Shown here one piece after another: positions 46,400 to 58,328 of a stretch of DNA of 64,000 bases. How positions within the stretch are numbered: the first letter of the stretch is position 1; each line of letters begins with the position of its first letter. A program made the translations under genes and the position numbers. Below the pieces are notes generated by a model, which searched no databases, was not told where the DNA came from, and saw only the letters and a program-made list of their open reading frames with translations. This DNA comes from Nitrososphaeraceae archaeon (GTDB lineage: Archaea; Thermoproteota; Nitrososphaeria; Nitrososphaerales; Nitrososphaeraceae): NCBI GenBank assembly GCA_031316115.1, contig JALDRC010000003.1, positions 248,001 through 312,000 on the forward strand, read 5' to 3'.

Positions 46400-47773
46400 T
46401 TAGAATATTCGATTTAGATTAAATTTATAAACTAATTTTCCATCGATTTTATTTTTTTTAAATTCTAATACATAGATATTTGATACTGGATGGGTAAAAG
46501 TAATAAAAAAGATTCTGTCAACCGATGACAATTGTAAATGATAATCATAAAAATTAGAATATCTAGATTGTATTTCTAACTTTTTTATCAGGAGGGAGAT
46601 ATTCATGTGATTTTTTAGCAGATTTGATAATTCTGGATAATGGATTTCTTGTCCATAGTTGTCCAAATCAACTATACAGAATTTAGGTAGGTCAGGTTCT
46701 AATTTTTCCAACTCCTCATTCAATGAGTCAGAAAGTGTTATATTTTCTAACGAATTTTTTTGAAAAGAATTAACTTCAGATTTTTTAAAGAAATTTGAGA
46801 TACTAGTCAAATTATCGAAATTGTCTTTGTTTGACTCTGTTAGTATAGAATAATAGGATTTAATTAAAGAAGACTCCACAAAAAGTTTAGCTGGTTTTTG
46901 AATTGATTCGTTTATGAATTTTAATAAAAACAACATAACACCTCGTAATCCAATTTTAAAATCATATTCTATTAATATAGTAGAATTATCTAAAAATCCT
47001 CCATTAAGATCATTATTCAAGACATCATAACCAGATCCAAATTTATTTGATGTGACAATTGATGATTTAAAAAAGGGATCGGAAGTCAGATAGTCATGGT
47101 AGGATTCTATTGTTCTGAAAATACCGTCTTGTAATGTAAATAAAAATGATTTTTTTGTTACGTTTACCCCTCTTAATTTATTTAAATAAATCTCTCTTAA
47201 CTCGTGTCCTTGATAATTTTTATTCCTCAAAGTTACAACTCCATCCACTAAATAATCTAAAGTAGAAATTTCTGTTCCTTCTTGTACTAATATAAGTCTC
47301 CCTCCTGCTCGCTCTAACCACGTTTGTAAAACTCTCTCATTATTTAACCTTGATTCTCTATCCATAAATGAAGCTATTCCATCCCAGCTATCTACAATAA
47401 TTAATGGAGCTCTTACATCCATGAGTTGATTTGTTATTCTTTCAAATAAAGATTCAGGTTCATCCAGTCTTGCATCTTCGAAGTAGGGTGCAAATAAATT
47501 TTCATTTTTTGAATATTTGCCATTTAGATTAGAATTTTTATTTTTAAGATATTTATTTATCCATTTAAAGTAATAAAATAATTTATTGGGGGAAAGCCTA
47601 GTAGATATATAAAAGAAATTATTCTTAATATTTAATACTCTTAAAATTGTCAGACATAATGCTGTTTTACCCCTGCCTGGTTCTCCCTTAATAAGTAATG
47701 AATAAGTTTCATTTTTAAGAAATCGTAATAAATCATCAGGAATTTGAAATGTATGATTGTTATTTTCATTCAA
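46400..47773 (-). CDS. GvpD/KaiC-like P-loop ATPase
   Basis: The 457-residue protein starts with a RecA/KaiC-type ATPase: Walker A GEPGRGKTALCLTILR near 36-51 and Walker B APLIIVDSWDGIASF near 127-140, then REIYLNKLRGVNV. The remainder is a poorly conserved C-terminal region with a second, degenerate P-loop-like fold (TILIEYDFKIGLRG, FCIVDLDN). Haloarchaeal GvpD regulators, KaiC and RadA-like proteins share this N-terminal domain; the REIYLNKLRG motif is KaiC/GvpD-like. No gas vesicle genes are present in the window. It is the downstream partner of no obvious operon. The exact role is unknown. Confidence 0.72.
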   Translation of the reverse strand: MNENNNHTFQIPDDLLRFLKNETYSLLIKGEPGRGKTALCLTILRVLNIKNNFFYISTRLSPNKLFYYFKWINKYLKNKNSNLNGKYSKNENLFAPYFEDARLDEPESLFERITNQLMDVRAPLIIVDSWDGIASFMDRESRLNNERVLQTWLERAGGRLILVQEGTEISTLDYLVDGVVTLRNKNYQGHELREIYLNKLRGVNVTKKSFLFTLQDGIFRTIESYHDYLTSDPFFKSSIVTSNKFGSGYDVLNNDLNGGFLDNSTILIEYDFKIGLRGVMLFLLKFINESIQKPAKLFVESSLIKSYYSILTESNKDNFDNLTSISNFFKKSEVNSFQKNSLENITLSDSLNEELEKLEPDLPKFCIVDLDNYGQEIHYPELSNLLKNHMNISLLIKKLEIQSRYSNFYDYHLQLSSVDRIFFITFTHPVSNIYVLEFKKNKIDGKLVYKFNLNRIF

Positions 47774-47866: not shown

Positions 47867-48961
47867 TTATGAGAACCATGGATTGATATTTTTTTGAAAT
47901 CTTAACGAATCAATTAATCCTTCAGCATAACCTATGCTTAACAAAGCTAATTCATACTTGTTTTGATTAAGAAATCTTTCGGAATCAATTAAATAATATT
48001 CTGCATTTTCCAACACATCAACCATTCCATGATTGATAATATTACTAGAATCGATAGTAGAACTATCTTTTTCTAGAAATGATTTCATTGTTTTTATCGC
48101 ATCTTTTGCTTTAGGTAGATATTTATTAATCATTCTTACAGCAATATGTTGAAACAGTTTAGAGTTGTCAGATGGCTTATCCAAATTAAGATGTATTGAA
48201 GTGACAACATCAATTTCAGTAAAATGAAGTGGACCTGGAATTATTATAGAATGTGGTCCGTCACCAAAGTTGCATTTATCTAAAGAAGATATTTTTCCAG
48301 ACTGAATTTTTTGAGAATTTTGCCCTATTCTTGATCCAATAATAACAAAGGTTTCGTCTGATATGATACCATATTTCAAATCTTTTTCTACTTCCTTCAA
48401 AAGAGAAATAGCAATACGTGGATTTAAGAATGAAAAATCTTTTTCGTCATTATTATTATATTCTGTTAGGATTAAGGTATGGTTACCAACCTTAAGATTT
48501 TCATAAATTGTAGAATAGACACTTATTGCAGATTGAGGATCAGACATAATGGTTGTTGTTCTTCCAAATTTATAATTATGTAGTCCACTTTCACCTATAA
48601 ACGAAAAAATTCCAGATGACCCATGAATAATCTTTGTATTTATCATATGATTATTAGCTCTATTTCTGAGTTCATTTATGGTTGTTGCCATTAAAGGGTC
48701 ACCATATGTAACCAAGGCTACAATAGAATTTTGTGATTGTGAAAGAATTTGTTTGGCATCTTCAACAAACCAACGTTTTACGATACTTATCTTTTTATTC
48801 TTTTCTGGATCCACAATCTGAATAAATTTTTCTATTTCACTATTGTTTATATAATTGGTGAATCTTTCGATATATACTATTTCACAACTCTTTAGGATTT
48901 CTAAAGCTTCTAAACTCATTCCTCTGCATCCACCTATCCCAAGTCCTATCAGGTATAACAT
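47867..48961 (-). CDS. dphB: Diphthine synthase fused to DUF357-like domain
   Basis: Residues 1-265 are a tetrapyrrole-methylase-fold diphthine synthase, which methylates the translation factor aEF2 histidine precursor to diphthine: MLYLIGLGIGGCRGMSLEA, YGDPLMATTINEL, HGSSGIFSFIGESGLHNYKF and the C-terminal FVIIGSRIGQ. From about 285 to 364 the protein continues with a helical domain, MINKYLPKAKDAIKTM and AEYYLIDSERFLNQNKYELALLSIGYAEGLID, which resembles DUF357, often a separate neighbour of dph5. Family length is usually about 260. It follows lysK by 57 bases on the same strand. Confidence 0.88.
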   Translation of the reverse strand: MLYLIGLGIGGCRGMSLEALEILKSCEIVYIERFTNYINNSEIEKFIQIVDPEKNKKISIVKRWFVEDAKQILSQSQNSIVALVTYGDPLMATTINELRNRANNHMINTKIIHGSSGIFSFIGESGLHNYKFGRTTTIMSDPQSAISVYSTIYENLKVGNHTLILTEYNNNDEKDFSFLNPRIAISLLKEVEKDLKYGIISDETFVIIGSRIGQNSQKIQSGKISSLDKCNFGDGPHSIIIPGPLHFTEIDVVTSIHLNLDKPSDNSKLFQHIAVRMINKYLPKAKDAIKTMKSFLEKDSSTIDSSNIINHGMVDVLENAEYYLIDSERFLNQNKYELALLSIGYAEGLIDSLRFQKNINPWFS

Positions 48962-49018: not shown

Positions 49019-50137
49019 CTAAATATTCTTTTTATAATTATACAATCTAGACATATGGAAAAGCGCTCTTTTGTATACTTCAATTCCAGTAACATATTCC
49101 TGAATATTGATATTTTCATCTATGCTATGAGAGGTATGTGGATCTCCTGGTCCATAAGTGACTACGGGAATTTTAAAGGCATTACCTATGATATTCATAT
49201 CACCTGTCCCTGTTTTACGCAACAAAACTGGTCTTTTCTTACATACATCCAATATAGAGAGAAAGAGTGACCTTACTAATAGAGAAGAATTATCAGCTTC
49301 GAAAGGTTCTGTAGAATCTTCAATTATGTAGTTTGTTTTGATACCTTTTTTTGCAGATATATCATTAATGATTTTATCGATTGAATTCAGTACTTGTTGA
49401 CAGGTATTAGTAGTTGGTATTCGTATATCCATTGTAATCTTACATTTTTGCGGTGTAACGTTATGACTTGAACCTCCAGTTATTTCAGTTAAACAGCAAC
49501 TAATAGAGCTAGTTTTTTTTTCCTTATTGTCTGTTTTGTTAATTTCATTCTTTATTGCAATCCAAAAATCATAAGATTCTTCAATAGAATTTTTTGCCAA
49601 CCAAGGCGCACTAGCATGAGCACTTTCAAGAACATCACAAATTAATTTTATAGCTAGTCTTCCCTTGTATGATATGGTTATATTCTGAATACCGCTTGGT
49701 TCACCAAAAATGGCATAATCAACTTCTAAATTATTTTTTACGAGTTGTTTGCTTCCTGTAGCATTACCTTCTTCATCAACCACTCCTGCAAAAATAATAG
49801 TTCCATTTTGTTTGGGGAACTCTGATGCTGCCAATAACATTGCTATTAAAGGAGCTTTAGCATCTGATGCACCGCGTCCAAATAAATAACCGTTCTCCAT
49901 CCTAACCGGTACTTTATTTGGAACTGTGTCCATGTGACCACAAAGAAGTATTCTTGGATACCCACTTCCCTTTGTAGCAATTACATTTCCTACACTATCA
50001 ATCTGGGCTTGTTCAAAGCCAAGATCATTTATACATGATTCCTTCAGCATATTAGCCAAAGGAGCTTCAGACCTTGAAGGTGTATAAAGGTCTAGTGATC
50101 TTCTTAAAAGTTCGACAGCATAAGTAGTAGAAACCAA
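49019..50137 (-). CDS. lysK: [LysW]-lysine/[LysW]-ornithine hydrolase
   Basis: This M20-family metallopeptidase releases lysine or ornithine from its LysW carrier in the last step of the LysW pathway. The 372-residue protein shows the zinc motifs LLCGHMDTVP near 70-79, GRGASDAKAPLIAML, GVVDEEGNATG with the catalytic Glu, FGEPSG, and GPGDPHTSHSIDENI near the C-terminus. Only one hydrolase is present, so it probably serves both arms. It starts 14 bases after lysX on the same strand. Confidence 0.92.
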   Translation of the reverse strand: MVSTTYAVELLRRSLDLYTPSRSEAPLANMLKESCINDLGFEQAQIDSVGNVIATKGSGYPRILLCGHMDTVPNKVPVRMENGYLFGRGASDAKAPLIAMLLAASEFPKQNGTIIFAGVVDEEGNATGSKQLVKNNLEVDYAIFGEPSGIQNITISYKGRLAIKLICDVLESAHASAPWLAKNSIEESYDFWIAIKNEINKTDNKEKKTSSISCCLTEITGGSSHNVTPQKCKITMDIRIPTTNTCQQVLNSIDKIINDISAKKGIKTNYIIEDSTEPFEADNSSLLVRSLFLSILDVCKKRPVLLRKTGTGDMNIIGNAFKIPVVTYGPGDPHTSHSIDENINIQEYVTGIEVYKRALFHMSRLYNYKKNI

Positions 50138-50150
50138 TTCTAATAATTAA

Positions 50151-51017
50151 TTAGTTGTATTTTATGGAATAGTCAACTATTATTTCCTGAATTGCTATTC
50201 CTGTGACCTTGACTGTATTTTTAAATTCTGTAGTATTATTTACTTCGTGTACGACCAAACCATCTCTGGAGCTTTCCATAAGATCTACGCCTACTATTTT
50301 TCCACCTACTATTTTTGTAGATTTTAAACATATATCCTCAAGTTCCTTTGTAATATGACATGCTTCAGCTCTGCCTCCTAAGGCCATATTTGTTTTCCAT
50401 GAATTACCCCCTGAATACCTGTAAATTGCGGCTACCACTGAATCACCTACAACTATAGCCCTAATATCCCTTGGGGGTCTATCTACGAATTCTTCTAGAT
50501 AATATACGTGATAGAGTGGAAACATATGTTCCCTATCTTCTATAACTGCCTTGGCAGCATCAGAATCTTTTAGCAGAGCTATTAATCTTCCCCAGCTTCC
50601 AATGGTTGGTTTAATAATCGTTGGATATCCAAATTTGTTGAGGGCATTTAGTGCTGACTCAGCTGAGAAAGCTGTTATTACTTTTGGAGTTTTTATTCCC
50701 GCATTTTTTAATTTCATATGTGTAAAAAGTTTGTTGCCACAGACAATAGCAGTATCTAAAGGATTTATGACCTTTGCCCCTAAACCTTCCAAAGCAGCAG
50801 TTGAATGAAGGCTCTTGAAATAACTAACAGATCTCTGTAAAATTGTTTGATCAAGATATTCTGAAGGATTATTAAGATCCAAAATTAGATCTTTACAATC
50901 GATATTTTTTATTTCAATCCCTTTTTTTCTTGCAGCCTCATAAATAGCCTTTTCTTCCCACCTAATGTTATCATAAAGAAGAATGAGAGAAGTTGTGTTC
51001 TTCCTCTCAGTAGTCAC
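50151..51017 (-). CDS. lysX: LysW ligase, probably for alpha-aminoadipate (LysX)
   Basis: This ATP-grasp ligase attaches an amino acid to the C-terminal Glu of LysW. Motifs: ALGGRAEACHITKELED, YLEEFVDRPPRDIR and the end motif VHEVNNTTEFKNTV near 260-275. The NNTTEF sequence matches the NTxEF signature of alpha-aminoadipate-type LysX, whereas the second ligase has NSNVEF. Start is GTG at 51015-51017 overlapping the lysW stop codon TGA by four bases (GTGA), a translational coupling sign. It is paired with the lysW ending in Gln. Confidence 0.9.
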   Translation of the reverse strand: MTTERKNTTSLILLYDNIRWEEKAIYEAARKKGIEIKNIDCKDLILDLNNPSEYLDQTILQRSVSYFKSLHSTAALEGLGAKVINPLDTAIVCGNKLFTHMKLKNAGIKTPKVITAFSAESALNALNKFGYPTIIKPTIGSWGRLIALLKDSDAAKAVIEDREHMFPLYHVYYLEEFVDRPPRDIRAIVVGDSVVAAIYRYSGGNSWKTNMALGGRAEACHITKELEDICLKSTKIVGGKIVGVDLMESSRDGLVVHEVNNTTEFKNTVKVTGIAIQEIIVDYSIKYN

Positions 51018-51181
51018 TGTCCCCAGTCCTCGCCAACCACTTGAGCCGGTTTAATATCAAATCCATTCTCACTCTTTATTAGTTCATAACTGGAACCACA
51101 ATCAGGACAAGCCACTATTTCCCCTTCAATAGAGTCATCAAGGATTTTTATTTCCGCGTCACATTCTTTACATTTTACCAT
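51014..51181 (-). CDS. lysW: LysW carrier protein 1, C-terminus EDWGQ
   Basis: This 55-residue protein starts with ATG at 51179-51181 and ends with TGA at 51014-51016. It has the LysW zinc motifs CKEC at 4-7 and CPDC at 25-28, the acidic middle, and the C-terminal extension PAQVVGEDWGQ. LysW normally ends EDWGE, and the terminal Glu side-chain carboxyl is the attachment site for alpha-aminoadipate or glutamate. Here the codon is CAG, giving Gln. The second copy at 56936-57109 has Glu. The gene sits between the homocitrate-synthase-like gene and lysX. Confidence 0.92.
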   Translation of the reverse strand: MVKCKECDAEIKILDDSIEGEIVACPDCGSSYELIKSENGFDIKPAQVVGEDWGQ

Positions 51182-51188
51182 TTTCTTT

Positions 51189-52397
51189 TTACTCCTTTTT
51201 CACATTTGTTGTTTCTTCATTAAGTATTTTTCTTTCCAAACGATCATCAAGGTAAAGTTCAAGAACATCTCCCATCCTTAGCTCTTTTAATCCGCGGGCC
51301 AGTTTTTCCGCCTCGCTTCTAGTCGTTTCGAGACCCAATAAAGATAACAAGTAAGCTGCTCCATTCTTACCTGCCAGTTCACCAAAAACAATTTTTCTTC
51401 TATTCCCCACGATTTTAGGTTCAATTATTTCATAAGCGGAAGGATTTCTCAGAATAGCAGCCAAATGTGTACCTGCTTTATGTTTGTACGCACTGTCTCC
51501 TACTAGTGGTTTAGATTCTGGAATTTCTAATCCGGTATATTGAGAAATTGTTTTTGATAAATCTTTCAACATATGTAATCTAAAATTATTTTTAGATTTG
51601 TATATCAACGTTAAGGCTATAGAAGCTTCTGCAAGAGAAGGTATCCCGGTCCTTTCCCCAAAGCCATCTATTGTAGTATGTAATTGATCAGCACCAGCCT
51701 CACATCCAGCTAACGCGTTGGCTAAGGCTAAACCTATATCATTGTGACAATGTACATCAAGAGAGGTCTTTGTCTTGTCTATATTATCATGGATAGTCTT
51801 GACTAAATTATACATTCCATTTGGCCGCATAATTCCTACTGTATCTGGAATGCTAATCCTTTCAATACCTATGTTACTAATTTCTTTACACATTTCTAAG
51901 AGAAAAGATGGTTCCGTTCGACTTGCATCTTCCATTGTAAATCTAGATTTTAGCCCGTAAGATTTAATATATTCTGCTACCTCGATTGCCCTTCTCTTGG
52001 CTTCTTCCCTAGATATTTTAAGCTTGGCAGTTAAATGAATATCAGAAATCCCCAAGTATGTCGCTACCCAAGTAGCACCAGTTTGAAGAGCTCTATCTAC
52101 ATCAGTTTTAATTGCTCTAACATGTGCTACGATATCAGCTTTTAGTTGTTGTTTGATGATAGTTCTAGTTGAATCAAAATGATCTTGAGAAACAACCGGA
52201 CTGATCTCTATCTGATCAACTCCAAATGAATCTAACATCCAGGCGATTTGTATACGTTGCTTGCTTGTAAAAGAAACTCCAGGATGTTGTTCTCCCTCTC
52301 GTAAAGTAGAATCAAGTATTTTGATTTTTTTATTATCATCGCCTATGTTGTTATAAAAGTGCGCATAATAGTTTGGATCGTCTGATTTCAGTATCAT
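51189..52397 (-). CDS. Homocitrate synthase-like LeuA-family enzyme
   Basis: The enzyme condenses acetyl-CoA with 2-oxoglutarate (or a related 2-oxoacid) in the first step of the alpha-aminoadipate lysine route. The 402-residue protein has the HMGL-like barrel with KILDSTLREGEQHPGVSF at 25-42, the metal site DVHCHNDIGLALANAL, and DQLHTTIDGFGERTGI, and a C-terminal swivel domain. Distinguishing homocitrate from 2-isopropylmalate synthase by eye is not fully certain, but location next to lysW/lysX and the DSTLREGEQHPGVSF motif favour homocitrate synthase. The ATG is at 52395-52397, with a TATA-like ATTTATATC about 37 bases upstream. Confidence 0.83.
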   Translation of the reverse strand: MILKSDDPNYYAHFYNNIGDDNKKIKILDSTLREGEQHPGVSFTSKQRIQIAWMLDSFGVDQIEISPVVSQDHFDSTRTIIKQQLKADIVAHVRAIKTDVDRALQTGATWVATYLGISDIHLTAKLKISREEAKRRAIEVAEYIKSYGLKSRFTMEDASRTEPSFLLEMCKEISNIGIERISIPDTVGIMRPNGMYNLVKTIHDNIDKTKTSLDVHCHNDIGLALANALAGCEAGADQLHTTIDGFGERTGIPSLAEASIALTLIYKSKNNFRLHMLKDLSKTISQYTGLEIPESKPLVGDSAYKHKAGTHLAAILRNPSAYEIIEPKIVGNRRKIVFGELAGKNGAAYLLSLLGLETTRSEAEKLARGLKELRMGDVLELYLDDRLERKILNEETTNVKKE

Positions 52398-52504: not shown

Positions 52505-52930
52505 TCATTTCATAGTTTTGAGGATTATTACTGTATTAGTATCTGAAACTCCTTCGATTTTTCTAACTTCATCAATGTAGGAATTTATTTGAGAGATCGC
52601 GGGAGCACTTATTATAGCGGCTATGTCGTACTGTCCAGTGATTTCATAGACAACCTCTATTCCCTCTAACTTCAATAGCCTCGAGGTAACGGTAGAAGTA
52701 TCTGATGTGGATGCTACTGAAATAAGTGTAATTGCACTAGTTTTCTCATCTTGGCTTATCTCAATAGTAAATTTTTTTATAGCTTTATTGTCACATAAAT
52801 TTTTTACCCTCCTTCTCACTGCTGATTCTGAAAGTCCTATGGAATTAGCTATTTCTACAAATGATCTGCGTGAGTCCTCCTGCAGTATTTTAATAATTTT
52901 TTTATCAAAGGAATCGAGATTATTTAACAT
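52505..52930 (-). CDS. Lrp/AsnC-family transcription regulator, LysM-like
   Basis: The 141-residue protein has an N-terminal helix-turn-helix (IIKILQEDSRRSFVEIANSI and SESAVRRRVKNL) and a C-terminal RAM ligand domain (GQYDIAAIISAPAI). It is placed inside the lysine/arginine cluster, overlapping the aminotransferase gene by 11 bases, which is where the lysine-responsive regulator LysM lies in Sulfolobales. It therefore probably regulates this cluster by binding lysine or a related amino acid; the ligand is inferred. Confidence 0.87.
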   Translation of the reverse strand: MLNNLDSFDKKIIKILQEDSRRSFVEIANSIGLSESAVRRRVKNLCDNKAIKKFTIEISQDEKTSAITLISVASTSDTSTVTSRLLKLEGIEVVYEITGQYDIAAIISAPAISQINSYIDEVRKIEGVSDTNTVIILKTMK

Positions 52931-54119
52931 TTCTTCTTTCCTCTTCCTTTAGTAATATTCTATCCATAATTTCCAGGGTTTTTAATACTTTTTCGTCATC
53001 TAAAACTAATGGTGGGAGTAATCTAATTATATTTCTTCCAGAATACAACATAAGGAGTCCTTCTTTTATACCATCCAATAACACATTTCTAACATCAAAA
53101 CGAAGCTCTACTGCAAGCATTAGTCCTAGTCCTCGAACATCTCGTATTATTTTATGATTTTTCTTTAGTTCTAATAATCCTTGTTTAAAAATACCTCCGA
53201 TATTCACAGCATTTTCTACAAGTTTATCCTCTAATAACGAATCAATTGTAGCAACTCCAGCAGAACAAGAAAGAGGATTGCCAGCAAATGTCGACGAATG
53301 TTCACCAAGTTTCATATTATCAATTATTTCAGGCTTGCATAAGGTTAATCCCATAGGCAAACCCCCTGCTATACCTTTAGCAAGACACATAATATCAGGA
53401 GTAGTTTTCCAATGTTGTCCTGCCCACATCATCCCTGTTCTTCCTAATCCAGTTTGGATCTCATCAAAAATCAATACCAAATTGTTAGCATCACATATTC
53501 TTCTAATTTCCTGTAAAGTTCCTTCTGGTGGTACTATAATACCTGTTTCGCCTTGAATAGGTTCGACAATAACAGTTCCAATATTATTGTCCAATTCTTC
53601 TTCAATTTTTGATGGAGTATGTGGTGGTACAAATTTGACACCATCCAGTAAAGGTTGAAAAGATTTTCTATATTTTTCACTGTATGTTACAGATAAAGAC
53701 CCAAAAGTCTTTCCGTGGTATCCACCATTCATAGCAATTATCCCACTTTTTCCAGTATATTTTCTAGAAAATTTAATAGCTGCTTCTACTGATTCCGTTC
53801 CGCTATTACTAAAGAAAACTTTAGACAGCTTTGTTGGAGCTATATTGGATATTCTTTTTAAAAAATTTAATCTTGTATCATTGTATATTGACATATGACA
53901 TGTAATTAGTTTTTCTGCTTGTTCACGAATAGCTTGTACTACCCTGTCGTTACAATGACCCACCAATGCTACACCATAGCCTCCCATACAATCAATGTAT
54001 TCTTTTCCTGTAGTATCCCACACAGTTACACCTTTTCCCTTTGCTATATTGACAGGAAAACGTTGGTATAGATTTCCTAAGTATAGATCTTCCCCATTCA
54101 TTTGCTTATCACCGTGCAA
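52920..54119 (-). CDS. argD: LysW-aminoadipate semialdehyde/glutamate semialdehyde transaminase
   Basis: This PLP-dependent class III aminotransferase acts on the LysW-bound semialdehyde to give LysW-lysine or LysW-ornithine. The 399-residue protein has MGGYGVALVGH, FFSNSGTESVEAAIKFSRKY, LIFDEIQTGLGRTGMMWA and the PLP lysine in CLAKGIAGGLPMG. The start overlaps the argB/lysZ gene by 22 bases. The family includes ArgD and LysJ; one enzyme for both arms is likely because only one copy is visible. Confidence 0.93.
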   Translation of the reverse strand: MHGDKQMNGEDLYLGNLYQRFPVNIAKGKGVTVWDTTGKEYIDCMGGYGVALVGHCNDRVVQAIREQAEKLITCHMSIYNDTRLNFLKRISNIAPTKLSKVFFSNSGTESVEAAIKFSRKYTGKSGIIAMNGGYHGKTFGSLSVTYSEKYRKSFQPLLDGVKFVPPHTPSKIEEELDNNIGTVIVEPIQGETGIIVPPEGTLQEIRRICDANNLVLIFDEIQTGLGRTGMMWAGQHWKTTPDIMCLAKGIAGGLPMGLTLCKPEIIDNMKLGEHSSTFAGNPLSCSAGVATIDSLLEDKLVENAVNIGGIFKQGLLELKKNHKIIRDVRGLGLMLAVELRFDVRNVLLDGIKEGLLMLYSGRNIIRLLPPLVLDDEKVLKTLEIMDRILLKEEERRNVK

Positions 54120-54898
54120 TTAAAATGAGAGATTGCGGTAGAAATTGGATTTTCGACATTTCCTGATGCGATTATTGTCTCTGTAACACCCATTTCGAGA
54201 GATTCTGTGCACGCAAGTACCTTTTTTTCCATTCCGTAACCAATTTTAGGTATTGATTCTTTAGCTGTATCATAATTCATATTTTTAACTAATTCCCCGT
54301 TTAACATGAGACCGTTAACATTGGTAATAAAAATCACTTTATCAGCTTGTAAGCTTCCTGCGATATATGCCGCAGCTCTATCTCCATCTACATTTAAGAA
54401 TTCGATTTCTTCACTTAGAGCAATTGGAGAAACAACAGGAACAAAATTATTTGTTACTAAGAGTTTTATCAAGGAAGACTCTACGTTTTTTATTTTTCCT
54501 GTATATCCCCCATCTATTGCCATCTTTCTTCCATTTTCATTTAATATTATCAACTTCTTCTTCCTTTCTGCTTTAATGGTAGCACCATCTATTCCAGAAA
54601 TCCCTACAGCTGGAATACCATTATTAAGTAGCATTCGTACTATTGATTTGTTTATTTTTCCAGACATCACCATCGTATAAATTTCTGCAGTTTCTTTGTC
54701 AGTATATCTACTTCTTACTCCTGTTGGGGAAACAATGAATCTTTGTTCTTTACCCAACTTGTTCCCGATATTTGTTACTTCTTTGCCTCCTCCATGTACA
54801 AGCACTATTTTTTCGTCTTTCAGTAGATTTTTAATATCGAGTATAGCAGAAGGATGCAACCCTTCTACTATACTGCCACCTATTTTAATGACTATCAT
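54098..54898 (-). CDS. argB: LysW-amino acid kinase (ArgB/LysZ family)
   Basis: This kinase phosphorylates the side-chain carboxyl of LysW-bound glutamate or aminoadipate. The 266-residue protein has the amino acid kinase-fold motifs IVIKIGGSIVEG, IVLVHGGGKEVTNIG and IFITNVNGLMLNGE. It overlaps the reductase gene by four bases and the transaminase gene by 22, so the three are tightly coupled. As with the other shared enzymes, dual specificity is inferred. Confidence 0.93.
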   Translation of the reverse strand: MIVIKIGGSIVEGLHPSAILDIKNLLKDEKIVLVHGGGKEVTNIGNKLGKEQRFIVSPTGVRSRYTDKETAEIYTMVMSGKINKSIVRMLLNNGIPAVGISGIDGATIKAERKKKLIILNENGRKMAIDGGYTGKIKNVESSLIKLLVTNNFVPVVSPIALSEEIEFLNVDGDRAAAYIAGSLQADKVIFITNVNGLMLNGELVKNMNYDTAKESIPKIGYGMEKKVLACTESLEMGVTETIIASGNVENPISTAISHFNCTVISK

Positions 54899-55947
54899 AC
54901 TGGTGTCAATGGAGTAAATTTTAAGCCATCCGTCTCATCAAATCCAAACATTACATTCATATTTTGAATTGCAGAACCTGCTGCTCCCTTCATTAGATTA
55001 TCGGATGCAGAGAGTGCGACTACTCGTTGATTATCTTCATCGATGTCGAATCCTACATCACAAAAGTTAGAACCTATCAAAAATTTCGGATCGGGGAACT
55101 TGTATAATCCTTTTTTGTCTTTAATGAATCTTATGAAAGGTTCATTATTATAAGATCGTCTATAAATTTTCCAAAGTTCTAATTCATTAATTGATTTATT
55201 TAGAAAAGTATGATTGGTAGTTAGTATACCACGAACAATATTTACTGCATGTGGGCTCATACTCACTTTGATCTCTTTTTTTGTCAAAAGACTCAATTCT
55301 TGTATTATCTCACCGGTATGTCTATGTTTTGCTGGTTTATATGGTCTTATAACTCCATATCTCATTGCATGATGAGTCCCGGCATTGCTTTGTGCTCCTG
55401 CACCAGATGATCCTATTTTGCTATCGACCACAATATGTTCTGTGTCAATGAGATTATTTTCCACTAAAGGTTTTACTGCAATCAAAGATGTAACTGCCAT
55501 ACATCCAGGACATGAGGTTAATTTTGATTTTTTTATTTCTTCTCTATGGAACTCGGGTACACCGTATACAGATCTAGAAAGTAATTCTGGATAAGGATGT
55601 TCCCAACCATACCATTTCACATAATCTTTTGGATTTTTTAACCGAAAATCAGCAGAAAGGTCTATGATCTTTAGATCTCTATCATACAAGTCTTTCACTA
55701 TTTTATTAGCACTTCCATGTGGAACGGATACAAAAACCAAATCACAAGAGTCTGTAAGTTTTTCCATCTCAAGTTGTGAGAAGGTGAGATCTATGAATCC
55801 TTTCAGACTAGGATGAACTCTATGTACATATTCACCCGCTTGTTGCCTAGAAGTCACCATTGTGATCTCGATCTTTGGATGAGTAACAAGTAATCGTAGT
55901 AATTCTCCGCCAACGTATCCTGATGCGCCTATGACTCCTACCTTCAT
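54895..55947 (-). CDS. argC: LysW-amino acid phosphate reductase (ArgC/LysY family)
   Basis: The NADPH-dependent reductase converts the acyl phosphate on LysW to its semialdehyde. The 350-residue protein has MKVGVIGASGYVGGELLRL, the catalytic Cys in SCPGCMAVTSLIAVKPL near 150, and AGTHHAMRYGVIRPYK. It begins the argC-argB-argD-lrp run. A 112-base gap separates it from the upstream ligase gene and may hold a promoter. Confidence 0.94.
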   Translation of the reverse strand: MKVGVIGASGYVGGELLRLLVTHPKIEITMVTSRQQAGEYVHRVHPSLKGFIDLTFSQLEMEKLTDSCDLVFVSVPHGSANKIVKDLYDRDLKIIDLSADFRLKNPKDYVKWYGWEHPYPELLSRSVYGVPEFHREEIKKSKLTSCPGCMAVTSLIAVKPLVENNLIDTEHIVVDSKIGSSGAGAQSNAGTHHAMRYGVIRPYKPAKHRHTGEIIQELSLLTKKEIKVSMSPHAVNIVRGILTTNHTFLNKSINELELWKIYRRSYNNEPFIRFIKDKKGLYKFPDPKFLIGSNFCDVGFDIDEDNQRVVALSASDNLMKGAAGSAIQNMNVMFGFDETDGLKFTPLTPV

Positions 55948-56059: not shown

Positions 56060-56914
56060 TCATTTTTTTAAAGAGTCAAGAACATAATCGATCATGGCAC
56101 TTGCAATATTAATCTGGGCTACTTGAGATGCTCCTCTAAATTCAACATTGCTATTTATTTCGTGAACTACTAATCCACGATTTTTATCTTCCATGACATC
56201 AACTCCTAGTATTCCCCCACCAACTGCTTTTGATGCATCTAAAACAATATCCTCAAGTTCGTTTGTAATTGGTGCTAATGCAGTGTGACCTCCTCGTGAG
56301 ACATTCGTTCTCCACTCATTATTTGCAGAATATCTATATACTGCTGTTATAATTTGTTCTCCGGCTACAATACATCTAATATCTCTAGGAGGTCTATCGA
56401 TCATCTCTTGGACGTAATAAATTCGTGAAAAAGGGGTATCATTTTCTTCCCTATTCTCTACAATCATATTGGCGACCTCTCCATCTTTTACTGGAAAAAC
56501 ACCCCTTCCCCAAGAGCCTACAAGTGGTTTAATTACAAATGGAAATCCTATTTTTTCTGTCAAACTCTTAAATGATTCAGAATTGAAGGAAAAATATGTT
56601 TTAGGAGAAGCAATTTTTGACTTTGCCAGGATGAGAGATGTTCTTAATTTATTTCCACAAATTTCAGTTACTTGATAAGTATTTGTTACTGGATATCCTA
56701 GAAATTCTAAGCAAGAGGTTAAGTAAAGTCCCCTGAAGTGACTTAAACAACGTTGAAGAAAAATATCTCCTAGAACATCATTGCCGTTAATATCTGTACT
56801 GATTGAAATGGTTTTGGCATCGACTAACCTAGTGTTAATTCCTTTTTTTATAGCATTATCATATAATGTTTTTTCTTCGAATCTTAGTTTATCATAAAGG
56901 ATAGATAGTTCCAT
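56060..56914 (-). CDS. argX: LysW ligase, probably for glutamate (ArgX)
   Basis: This is the second ATP-grasp ligase in the block, 284 residues. It has VQEMIDRPPRDIRC, VSRGGHTALAPITNELED and the C-terminal VHEINSNVEFRGAS, where NSNVEF differs from the NNTTEF of the first copy and resembles ArgX from Sulfolobales, which prefers glutamate. Paired with the lysW ending in Glu and with argG, this suggests the arginine arm. The start ATG is at 56912-56914. Substrate preference is inferred from motif and context. Confidence 0.88.
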   Translation of the reverse strand: MELSILYDKLRFEEKTLYDNAIKKGINTRLVDAKTISISTDINGNDVLGDIFLQRCLSHFRGLYLTSCLEFLGYPVTNTYQVTEICGNKLRTSLILAKSKIASPKTYFSFNSESFKSLTEKIGFPFVIKPLVGSWGRGVFPVKDGEVANMIVENREENDTPFSRIYYVQEMIDRPPRDIRCIVAGEQIITAVYRYSANNEWRTNVSRGGHTALAPITNELEDIVLDASKAVGGGILGVDVMEDKNRGLVVHEINSNVEFRGASQVAQINIASAMIDYVLDSLKK

Positions 56915-56935: not shown

Positions 56936-57109
56936 TTATTCTCCCCAATCCTCGCCTACCGATTCTGCCCGTTTTAGATCCATGCTTCCATTTGAAGTAG
57001 ATGATATTTCAAAATCGCCTCCACAATCTGGACAGGAGACAATTTCTCCCACTACAGCATCGTCAGGAATGTTCAGTTCTCCTCCACAATCAATACATTC
57101 TTTTTTCAT
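56936..57109 (-). CDS. lysW: LysW carrier protein 2, C-terminus EDWGE
   Basis: The 57-residue protein starts with ATG at 57107-57109 and ends with TAA at 56936-56938. Zinc motifs CIDC at 5-8 and CPDC at 26-29 (count approximate) flank an acidic middle, followed by RAESVGEDWGE. The terminal Glu, which accepts the substrate, is intact. It sits one base downstream of the argG stop codon and 21 bases before argX on the same strand. It is therefore the glutamate/arginine-arm carrier by context. Confidence 0.94.
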   Translation of the reverse strand: MKKECIDCGGELNIPDDAVVGEIVSCPDCGGDFEISSTSNGSMDLKRAESVGEDWGE

Positions 57110-57110
57110 T

Positions 57111-58328
57111 CTATTGTTCTTCTCCTTTATTCTCTTTTTTATTTAAAGTAATTGCTAAAGATTTTGCAGTAATAGATTGTAATCCCCAAAATTCAACAAA
57201 ACCTTTTGCTAAAGTTTGATCAAAAACAGAATCAGAAGAATAAGTGGCAAGGGCATTATTGTACAATGAGAAATCAGATCGCCTTCCAACGACTCTCATA
57301 GAACCATTTTGAAGTCTTATCTTTACCATTCCTGTAACTCTGGTTTGTGTAGCATCTATAAACTTATCCAAATCATACATAAGAGGATCTTGCCATAATC
57401 CTGAGTAAGCCATCCAACTCCATTGCTGATCTACCAAATGTTTAAATCGTAATTCATGAGACGTTAAGACCAGTTTTTCCAGATCCTGATGCGCTTCGAT
57501 CAAAATGCTAGCCGCTGGAGATTCATAAATTTCACGAGATTTAATACCTATAACCCGATCTTCCATATGGTCAATGATTCCTACACCATGAGCTCCTACT
57601 TTAGAATTAAGGTAATTTATTAATTCGACTAACTCCATTTTATTCCCATCTACACGAACAGGGATTCCATCTTCAAATTTAATCTCCAAATACCCTACTT
57701 CAGGATTATCAAGTTTTACGTACTTAAAACATTCTGGTGGAGGTTCTGTATAAGGATTTTCAAGCTCTCCTCCTTCGATTGATCGTCCCCATAAATTTTC
57801 ATCTATACTATATTTTTTAACTTCAGTATTTATAGGAATATTATTTTCTTTAGCAAATTGAATTTCCTTATCACGAGTCAGATTCAAATCTCTGATAGGA
57901 GCAATAATTCGTAAATTAGGATTTAATGACCTTATCGTAATGTCAAATCTTATTTGATCGTTACCTTTTCCAGTACAACCGTGCGAAATAAAATTCGCAT
58001 TTTCTTTGTTTGCTATTTCTACAACATTCTTTGCTATTAAAGGTCTAGCCAATGCAGTAGCAAGGGGATATTTATTTTGATATAATCCATTTGCTTTTAT
58101 GCATCTTGTTATATAGTTTTCTGCAAACTCTGGGATCGCGTTAATATTATAATGCTTTAAAGATCCTATTTCCATAGCTCTTGACTCTATTTTTCTTAGG
58201 TCTTCATTTTGACCACAATCTACTGTTACTGTAATGACATCTAAATTATGTATTATTTCCAAATATTTTATACATACGGAAGTATCTAAACCTCCAGAAT
58301 AGGCAAGAACACATTTTTCTTTTACCAT
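57111..58328 (-). CDS. argG: Argininosuccinate synthase
   Basis: This enzyme joins citrulline and aspartate using ATP. The 405-residue protein has the pyrophosphatase P-loop LAYSGGLDTSVCIKYL at 8-23, SHGCTGKGNDQIRFD and the C-terminal TARVTGMVKI-like segment (DATQTRVTGMVKIRL). It is the first gene of the arginine arm, followed immediately by lysW-2 and argX. Its ATG is at 58326-58328 with a TATA-like element about 27 bases upstream, predicting a leaderless transcript. Confidence 0.97.
   Translation of the reverse strand: MVKEKCVLAYSGGLDTSVCIKYLEIIHNLDVITVTVDCGQNEDLRKIESRAMEIGSLKHYNINAIPEFAENYITRCIKANGLYQNKYPLATALARPLIAKNVVEIANKENANFISHGCTGKGNDQIRFDITIRSLNPNLRIIAPIRDLNLTRDKEIQFAKENNIPINTEVKKYSIDENLWGRSIEGGELENPYTEPPPECFKYVKLDNPEVGYLEIKFEDGIPVRVDGNKMELVELINYLNSKVGAHGVGIIDHMEDRVIGIKSREIYESPAASILIEAHQDLEKLVLTSHELRFKHLVDQQWSWMAYSGLWQDPLMYDLDKFIDATQTRVTGMVKIRLQNGSMRVVGRRSDFSLYNNALATYSSDSVFDQTLAKGFVEFWGLQSITAKSLAITLNKKENKGEEQ

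Follow-up and report, generated by a model that had tools for sequence, protein, structure and literature searches.

LysW-type carriers encoded with a terminal glutamine in ammonia-oxidising archaea, and a proposed Pup-like maturation to glutamate

The window analysed here is a stretch of 64,000 nucleotides from the genome of a Nitrososphaeraceae archaeon. Its minus strand carries a lysine/arginine biosynthesis cluster in the order argG, lysW-2, lysX-2, argC/lysY, argB/lysZ, argD/lysJ, an Lrp-type regulator, a homocitrate-synthase-like gene, lysW-1, lysX-1 and lysK. The features are as follows, in window coordinates.

49019-50137, minus strand: lysK, M20 [LysW]-lysine/ornithine hydrolase (homology to 5xoy, families, M20 motif residues)
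50151-51017, minus strand: lysX-1, RimK/LysX ATP-grasp ligase with GSWGR and EFKNT motifs (families, motifs)
51014-51181, minus strand: lysW-1, LysW-type carrier of 55 aa with the tail EDWGQ (NCBIfam NF041070 and Pfam PF21344)
51017-51019, minus strand: terminal Gln codon CAG of lysW-1, where known LysW proteins have Glu (codon and orthologues)
51189-52397, minus strand: homocitrate-synthase-like gene, directly upstream of lysW-1, marking the lysine branch (families)
52920-55947, minus strand: argC/lysY, argB/lysZ and argD/lysJ homologues, one copy each in the cluster
56060-56914, minus strand: lysX-2/argX, ATP-grasp ligase with GSWGR and EFRGA motifs (families, motifs)
56936-57109, minus strand: lysW-2, second LysW, Glu-ended (EDWGE), last codon GAA followed by TAA (family model and gene order)
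57111-58328, minus strand: argG

We also noticed a 457-aa protein encoded on the minus strand (46400-47773), downstream of a diphthine-synthase-like gene (47867-48961); it has a P-loop-like GEPGRGKTA motif and is perhaps KaiC-like, as judged by eye.

The lysW-1 product scores 79.1 bits against NF041070 (cut-off 75) and 45.9 against PF21344 (cut-off 27). It has the zinc-ribbon cysteines of the LysW family (CKEC/CPDC), the EDWG tail and a neighbouring LysX with GSWGR. One property of the family is missing, i.e., the acceptor C-terminal Glu is not encoded. The protein ends in ...VVGEDWGQ, from a gene whose 3' end reads GAG GAC TGG GGA CAG TGA. The initial annotation had pointed to this CAG codon, and to the contrast with the EDWGE end of lysW-2, and the sequence bears out both. 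Judged on sequence and gene order, lysW-1 is a LysW orthologue, yet a variant one whose acceptor residue is not encoded. Its TGA stop (51016-51014) shares 4 bases with the GTG start of lysX-1. A homology search of the 3.16 Mb genome found no third LysW (next matches at E > 0.1).

The two ligases probably differ in substrate, lysX-1 being aminoadipate-specific and lysX-2/argX glutamate-specific. The specificity motif is Asn-Thr in SaLysX (aminoadipate) and Gly-Phe in SaArgX (glutamate) (PMC10433800). Moreover, lysX-1 comes after the homocitrate-synthase-like gene and lysW-1, and lysX-2 is located beside argG. From these motif residues and gene neighbours, we infer that lysW-1 and lysX-1 form the lysine branch, and lysW-2 and lysX-2 the arginine branch. 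The homocitrate-synthase-like gene scores under the NCBIfam equivalog cut-offs, which leaves its exact substrate uncertain. The argC/lysY, argB/lysZ and argD/lysJ homologues, each present as a single copy, are probably common to both branches.

We followed the terminal residue of LysW through homology searches of 61 genomes, with extraction of the loci, and through a separate survey of 400 genomes of the order. In this order-wide survey, the EDWGQ-stop form is present in 276 genomes and the Glu form in 286. The Gln codon is either CAG or CAA, and it stands ahead of TGA, TAA or TAG. This recurrence in relatives, with synonymous codons, rules out the sequencing or assembly error that the initial annotation had kept among its explanations. 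In the window's own genus, lysW-1 also ends in CAG TGA in four other genomes (G002-G005). The alignment of related lysW-1 genes, proposed at the same time, shows that most orthologues of the family end in Gln. A constraint from the overlap between lysW-1 and lysX-1 is also ruled out, since GAG TGA would keep the overlap and Gln precedes TAA and TAG as well.

The Gln form is restricted to three families of the order: Nitrososphaeraceae (f1, including Nitrososphaera, Nitrosocosmicus and Nitrosopolaris), Nitrosocaldaceae (f2, with Nitrosocaldus) and Nitrosopumilaceae (f9, including Nitrosopumilus and Cenarchaeum). No Gln-ended LysW was found in the other fourteen families of the 400-genome survey. 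Named records link the three families to ammonia oxidisers, and the genomes compared here mark a Gln-ended LysW as a typical trait of ammonia-oxidising archaea. In the rest of the phylum, about 90 LysW include one that is Gln-ended. Outside the three families, true Gln-ended LysW occur, among the matches listed, only in Jordarchaeia (L147, L196) and in one further archaeon (G493, locus L324). These are independent occurrences, in genomes that each hold a Glu-ended copy as well. In bacteria, sequences fitting the Gln pattern proved, once translated, to be chance matches and not LysW. A second match to this pattern outside the order (G475, EDLGQ) was not recovered by a protein-level search for LysW there. 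In the open-access papers searched, we found no mention of a Gln end of LysW in Thaumarchaeota or Nitrososphaera, and no report of LysW deamidation.

The choice of residues at the tail is narrow. The 132 LysW extracted by homology comprise 72 ending in Glu and 60 ending in Gln, with no other residue, and EDWG is invariant in all of them, whereas position -8 varies freely. The 400 genomes were also scanned for terminal codons whose second base is C, G or T; no real LysW emerged, and the single match with an end other than Glu or Gln is not a LysW. Lys, Asn, Asp, His and Tyr, which lie outside this codon pattern, were checked through the 132 sequences. Since only Glu and Gln are found, the side-chain carbonyl appears to matter, while it seems to make no difference whether the acid or the amide is encoded. 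This Glu/Gln-only tail is the pattern predicted by a conversion of Gln to Glu. The terminal Glu is essential in the Natrinema ArgW, in which E54A leads to arginine auxotrophy (PMC10433800).

Both carriers switch between the two residues. In the window's genus, lysW-1 encodes Gln and lysW-2 Glu, and most Nitrosopumilaceae have the same arrangement. Two genera (g6 and g8) show the opposite, with Glu in lysW-1 and Gln in lysW-2. Both copies are Gln-ended in Nitrososphaera (g12) and in 2 of 3 genomes of a Cenarchaeum-like genus, and a small Nitrosopumilus clade has reverted to Glu in both. Nitrosocosmicus (g2) has a single, Gln-ended LysW and retains both lysX genes, and a further genus (g10) has one LysW, Gln-ended, with no lysX-2 in the regions read. 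On a quick tree of six neighbouring proteins, with SH-aLRT support only, the minimum is six Glu/Gln changes in lysW-1 and one in lysW-2, i.e., at least seven in total. As all four combinations exist, Gln is not a mark that distinguishes the two carriers.

Some of these genomes have rearranged or reduced loci. In Nitrosocosmicus, lysW-2 was lost and lysX-2 kept (L092, L094, L095, L097, L098), so that one LysW must serve two ligases. In g10, lysW-2 and lysX-2 were both apparently lost (L072, L073, L076), which suggests either another route to arginine or a LysX-1 that handles both substrates. In Nitrososphaera (L067/L068, L070/L071, L083/L084) and in the Nitrosocaldus type (L101/L102, L115/L116), the cluster is divided, and lysW-1, lysX-1 and lysK form a lysine locus far from the arginine one; the homocitrate-synthase-like gene lies with the lysine locus in the former and with the arginine locus in the latter. 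One bin (G032) contains two different lysW-1 clusters, a g10-like one with Gln and a g6-like one with Glu (L076 and L077), and is probably mixed.

The initial annotation had considered that the Gln-ended protein might be dead. In the corresponding explanation, this copy would be non-functional or have another job, and the Glu-ended copy would carry the flux; the lysW-2 of the window, being Glu-ended, could in principle serve both ligases. However, a Glu-ended LysW is altogether lacking in several genomes, those of Nitrososphaera and Nitrosocosmicus among them, and the Gln-only genomes of these two are complete or near-complete. ArgJ was not found in any of the ten genomes tested, so an ArgJ route to arginine is no substitute there. 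The Gln-ended proteins also retain EDWG, the zinc-ribbon cysteines and their position before lysX, and both copies switch between Glu and Gln. Decay of one spare copy is ruled out by the existence of Gln-only genomes, and we regard the whole explanation as very improbable. LysA-like proteins of about 235-256 bits, under the family cut-off, were seen in G006, G008, G016, G017, G024, G028 and G033, that is, in Nitrososphaera, Nitrosocosmicus and G008, and none in the window's genome. They raise a small doubt about lysine in Nitrososphaera and Nitrosocosmicus and leave arginine unaffected.

The ligases were compared for signs of a changed chemistry. GSWGR, reported as the reader of the EDWGE tail (PMC10433800), is present in every LysX-1 and LysX-2 row. 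No LysX column separates the partners of Gln-ended LysW from those of Glu-ended LysW, in a comparison which, for LysX-1, involved 31 Gln and 11 Glu partners with few independent switches and is thus a modest test. With the recognition motif kept and no co-varying site, the ligases give no support to the different reaction that had been envisaged at first, and a changed ligase chemistry was rejected.

Two further explanations were weighed. In these archaea, the ligase might act as RimK does on S6 and use the C-terminal alpha-carboxylate, which would leave the side chain free to be Glu or Gln. Extension of alpha-carboxylates is known from some members of the RimK family, to which LysX belongs. 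However, an irrelevant side chain predicts other residues at this position, found in 0 of the 132 LysW and in none by the codon pattern, and the motif residues of LysX equal those of its gamma-ligating relatives; we find this use of the alpha-carboxylate improbable. The Gln amide might otherwise be used directly by LysX or another enzyme, either in a transamidation in which the substrate amine displaces ammonia or through activation of the amide oxygen. This would account for the acceptance of Gln and Glu and nothing else, but it could serve the first cycle only, because LysK returns Glu, and the ligases are ordinary-looking and unchanged. Direct use of the amide is equally improbable in our opinion.

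We now turn to maturation of the carrier. In the pathway as described, LysX forms an amide between the substrate's amino group and the gamma-carboxyl of the terminal Glu, and this amide is finally hydrolysed by LysK. In the proposed scheme, the Gln side-chain amide of lysW-1 would be hydrolysed once to Glu after translation; LysX-1 would then couple alpha-aminoadipate to the new gamma-carboxylate; LysZ, LysY and LysJ would process the carrier-bound aminoadipate; and LysK would free lysine and hand back the carrier in its Glu form. Since LysK returns the Glu form, one deamidation per carrier molecule would be enough, and the encoded letter would matter only once. Deamidation is the best supported of the four options first listed for this gene, and the conversion itself we infer. 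That Gln is converted to Glu post-translationally, by whichever enzyme, appears fairly likely to us, and with moderate confidence we favour lysW-1 as a working carrier encoded as a Gln precursor, deamidated once and then recycled as Glu.

As to the converting enzyme, we tentatively put forward LysK. It is the simplest deamidase, because its usual reaction is the hydrolysis of a gamma-glutamyl amide at the same residue, and Gln is that amide with ammonia as the leaving group. The LysK of the window matches the [LysW]-lysine hydrolase 5xoy, and all of 64 sequences compared share its M20 motif residues (H68, D70, D92, E122, E123, E146). When sequences with and without Gln were compared, no LysK column clearly tracked the trait. 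The substrates known for LysK are lysine and ornithine amides, and activity on Gln is only proposed here. Moreover, the rarity of Gln elsewhere counts against a general LysK activity: if any LysK sufficed, other phyla should show more Gln-ended carriers. The near-confinement of Gln to ammonia oxidisers would be explained by a lineage-specific amidase or by a selective advantage of a delayed-action carrier. A separate amidase specific to ammonia-oxidising archaea could deamidate LysW in place of LysK, and perhaps be a control point on carrier use; a trait almost limited to three families fits such an enzyme better than a general LysK activity. On the other hand, no candidate is seen adjoining the genes and the known protein-Gln deamidase families do not fit, which makes this separate amidase doubtful. 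Dop/PafA (PF03136) was found in 0 of 16 genomes, with a positive Corynebacterium control. CheD, known to deamidate Gln in chemoreceptors, has a patchy presence (7 of 16 genomes); neither the window's genome nor Nitrosocosmicus has it, and it is therefore not the general enzyme.

The terminal Glu is the one residue on which LysW chemistry depends, yet a widespread archaeal group usually encodes Gln, and some of its members nothing else. Either the descriptions of the pathway omit a maturation step, or the chemistry of the carrier differs. A metabolic model placing LysW in Nitrosopumilus assumes the ordinary form (PMC6038301). In our reading, which we hold to be somewhat probable, ammonia oxidisers mature LysW from Gln to Glu by a dedicated enzyme or by a second activity of LysK. 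Primary amino-acid biosynthesis would thereby include a Pup-like precursor step, at which the synthesis of lysine and arginine might also be controlled.

The closest known systems are the LysW/ArgW carriers of Thermus, Sulfolobus, Thermococcus and Natrinema (PDB relatives 3vpb, 3wwl and 5k2m). lysW-1 resembles them in its zinc ribbon, EDWG tail, LysX partner with GSWGR, LysK and gene order. However, all the characterised carriers end in the acceptor Glu, whereas lysW-1 is encoded with Gln. The maturation proposed here has its parallel in the actinobacterial Pup, a small protein that, like LysW, is linked via the gamma-carboxylate of its last residue. Pup is encoded with Gln in some species and with Glu in others; the Gln form has to be deamidated, and Dop both deamidates Pup-Gln and removes Pup (PMC8599861). 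Among related LysW, too, the C-terminal residue alternates between Gln and Glu. This is a shared logic and not a kinship: Pup is a degradation tag and LysW a biosynthetic carrier, with no sequence relation between them. By analogy, lysW-1 would work like the Pup/Dop system without being a member of it, and the Pup logic, by which a single enzyme both frees the cargo and unmasks the carrier, may have a second, independent instance in Gln-ended LysW.
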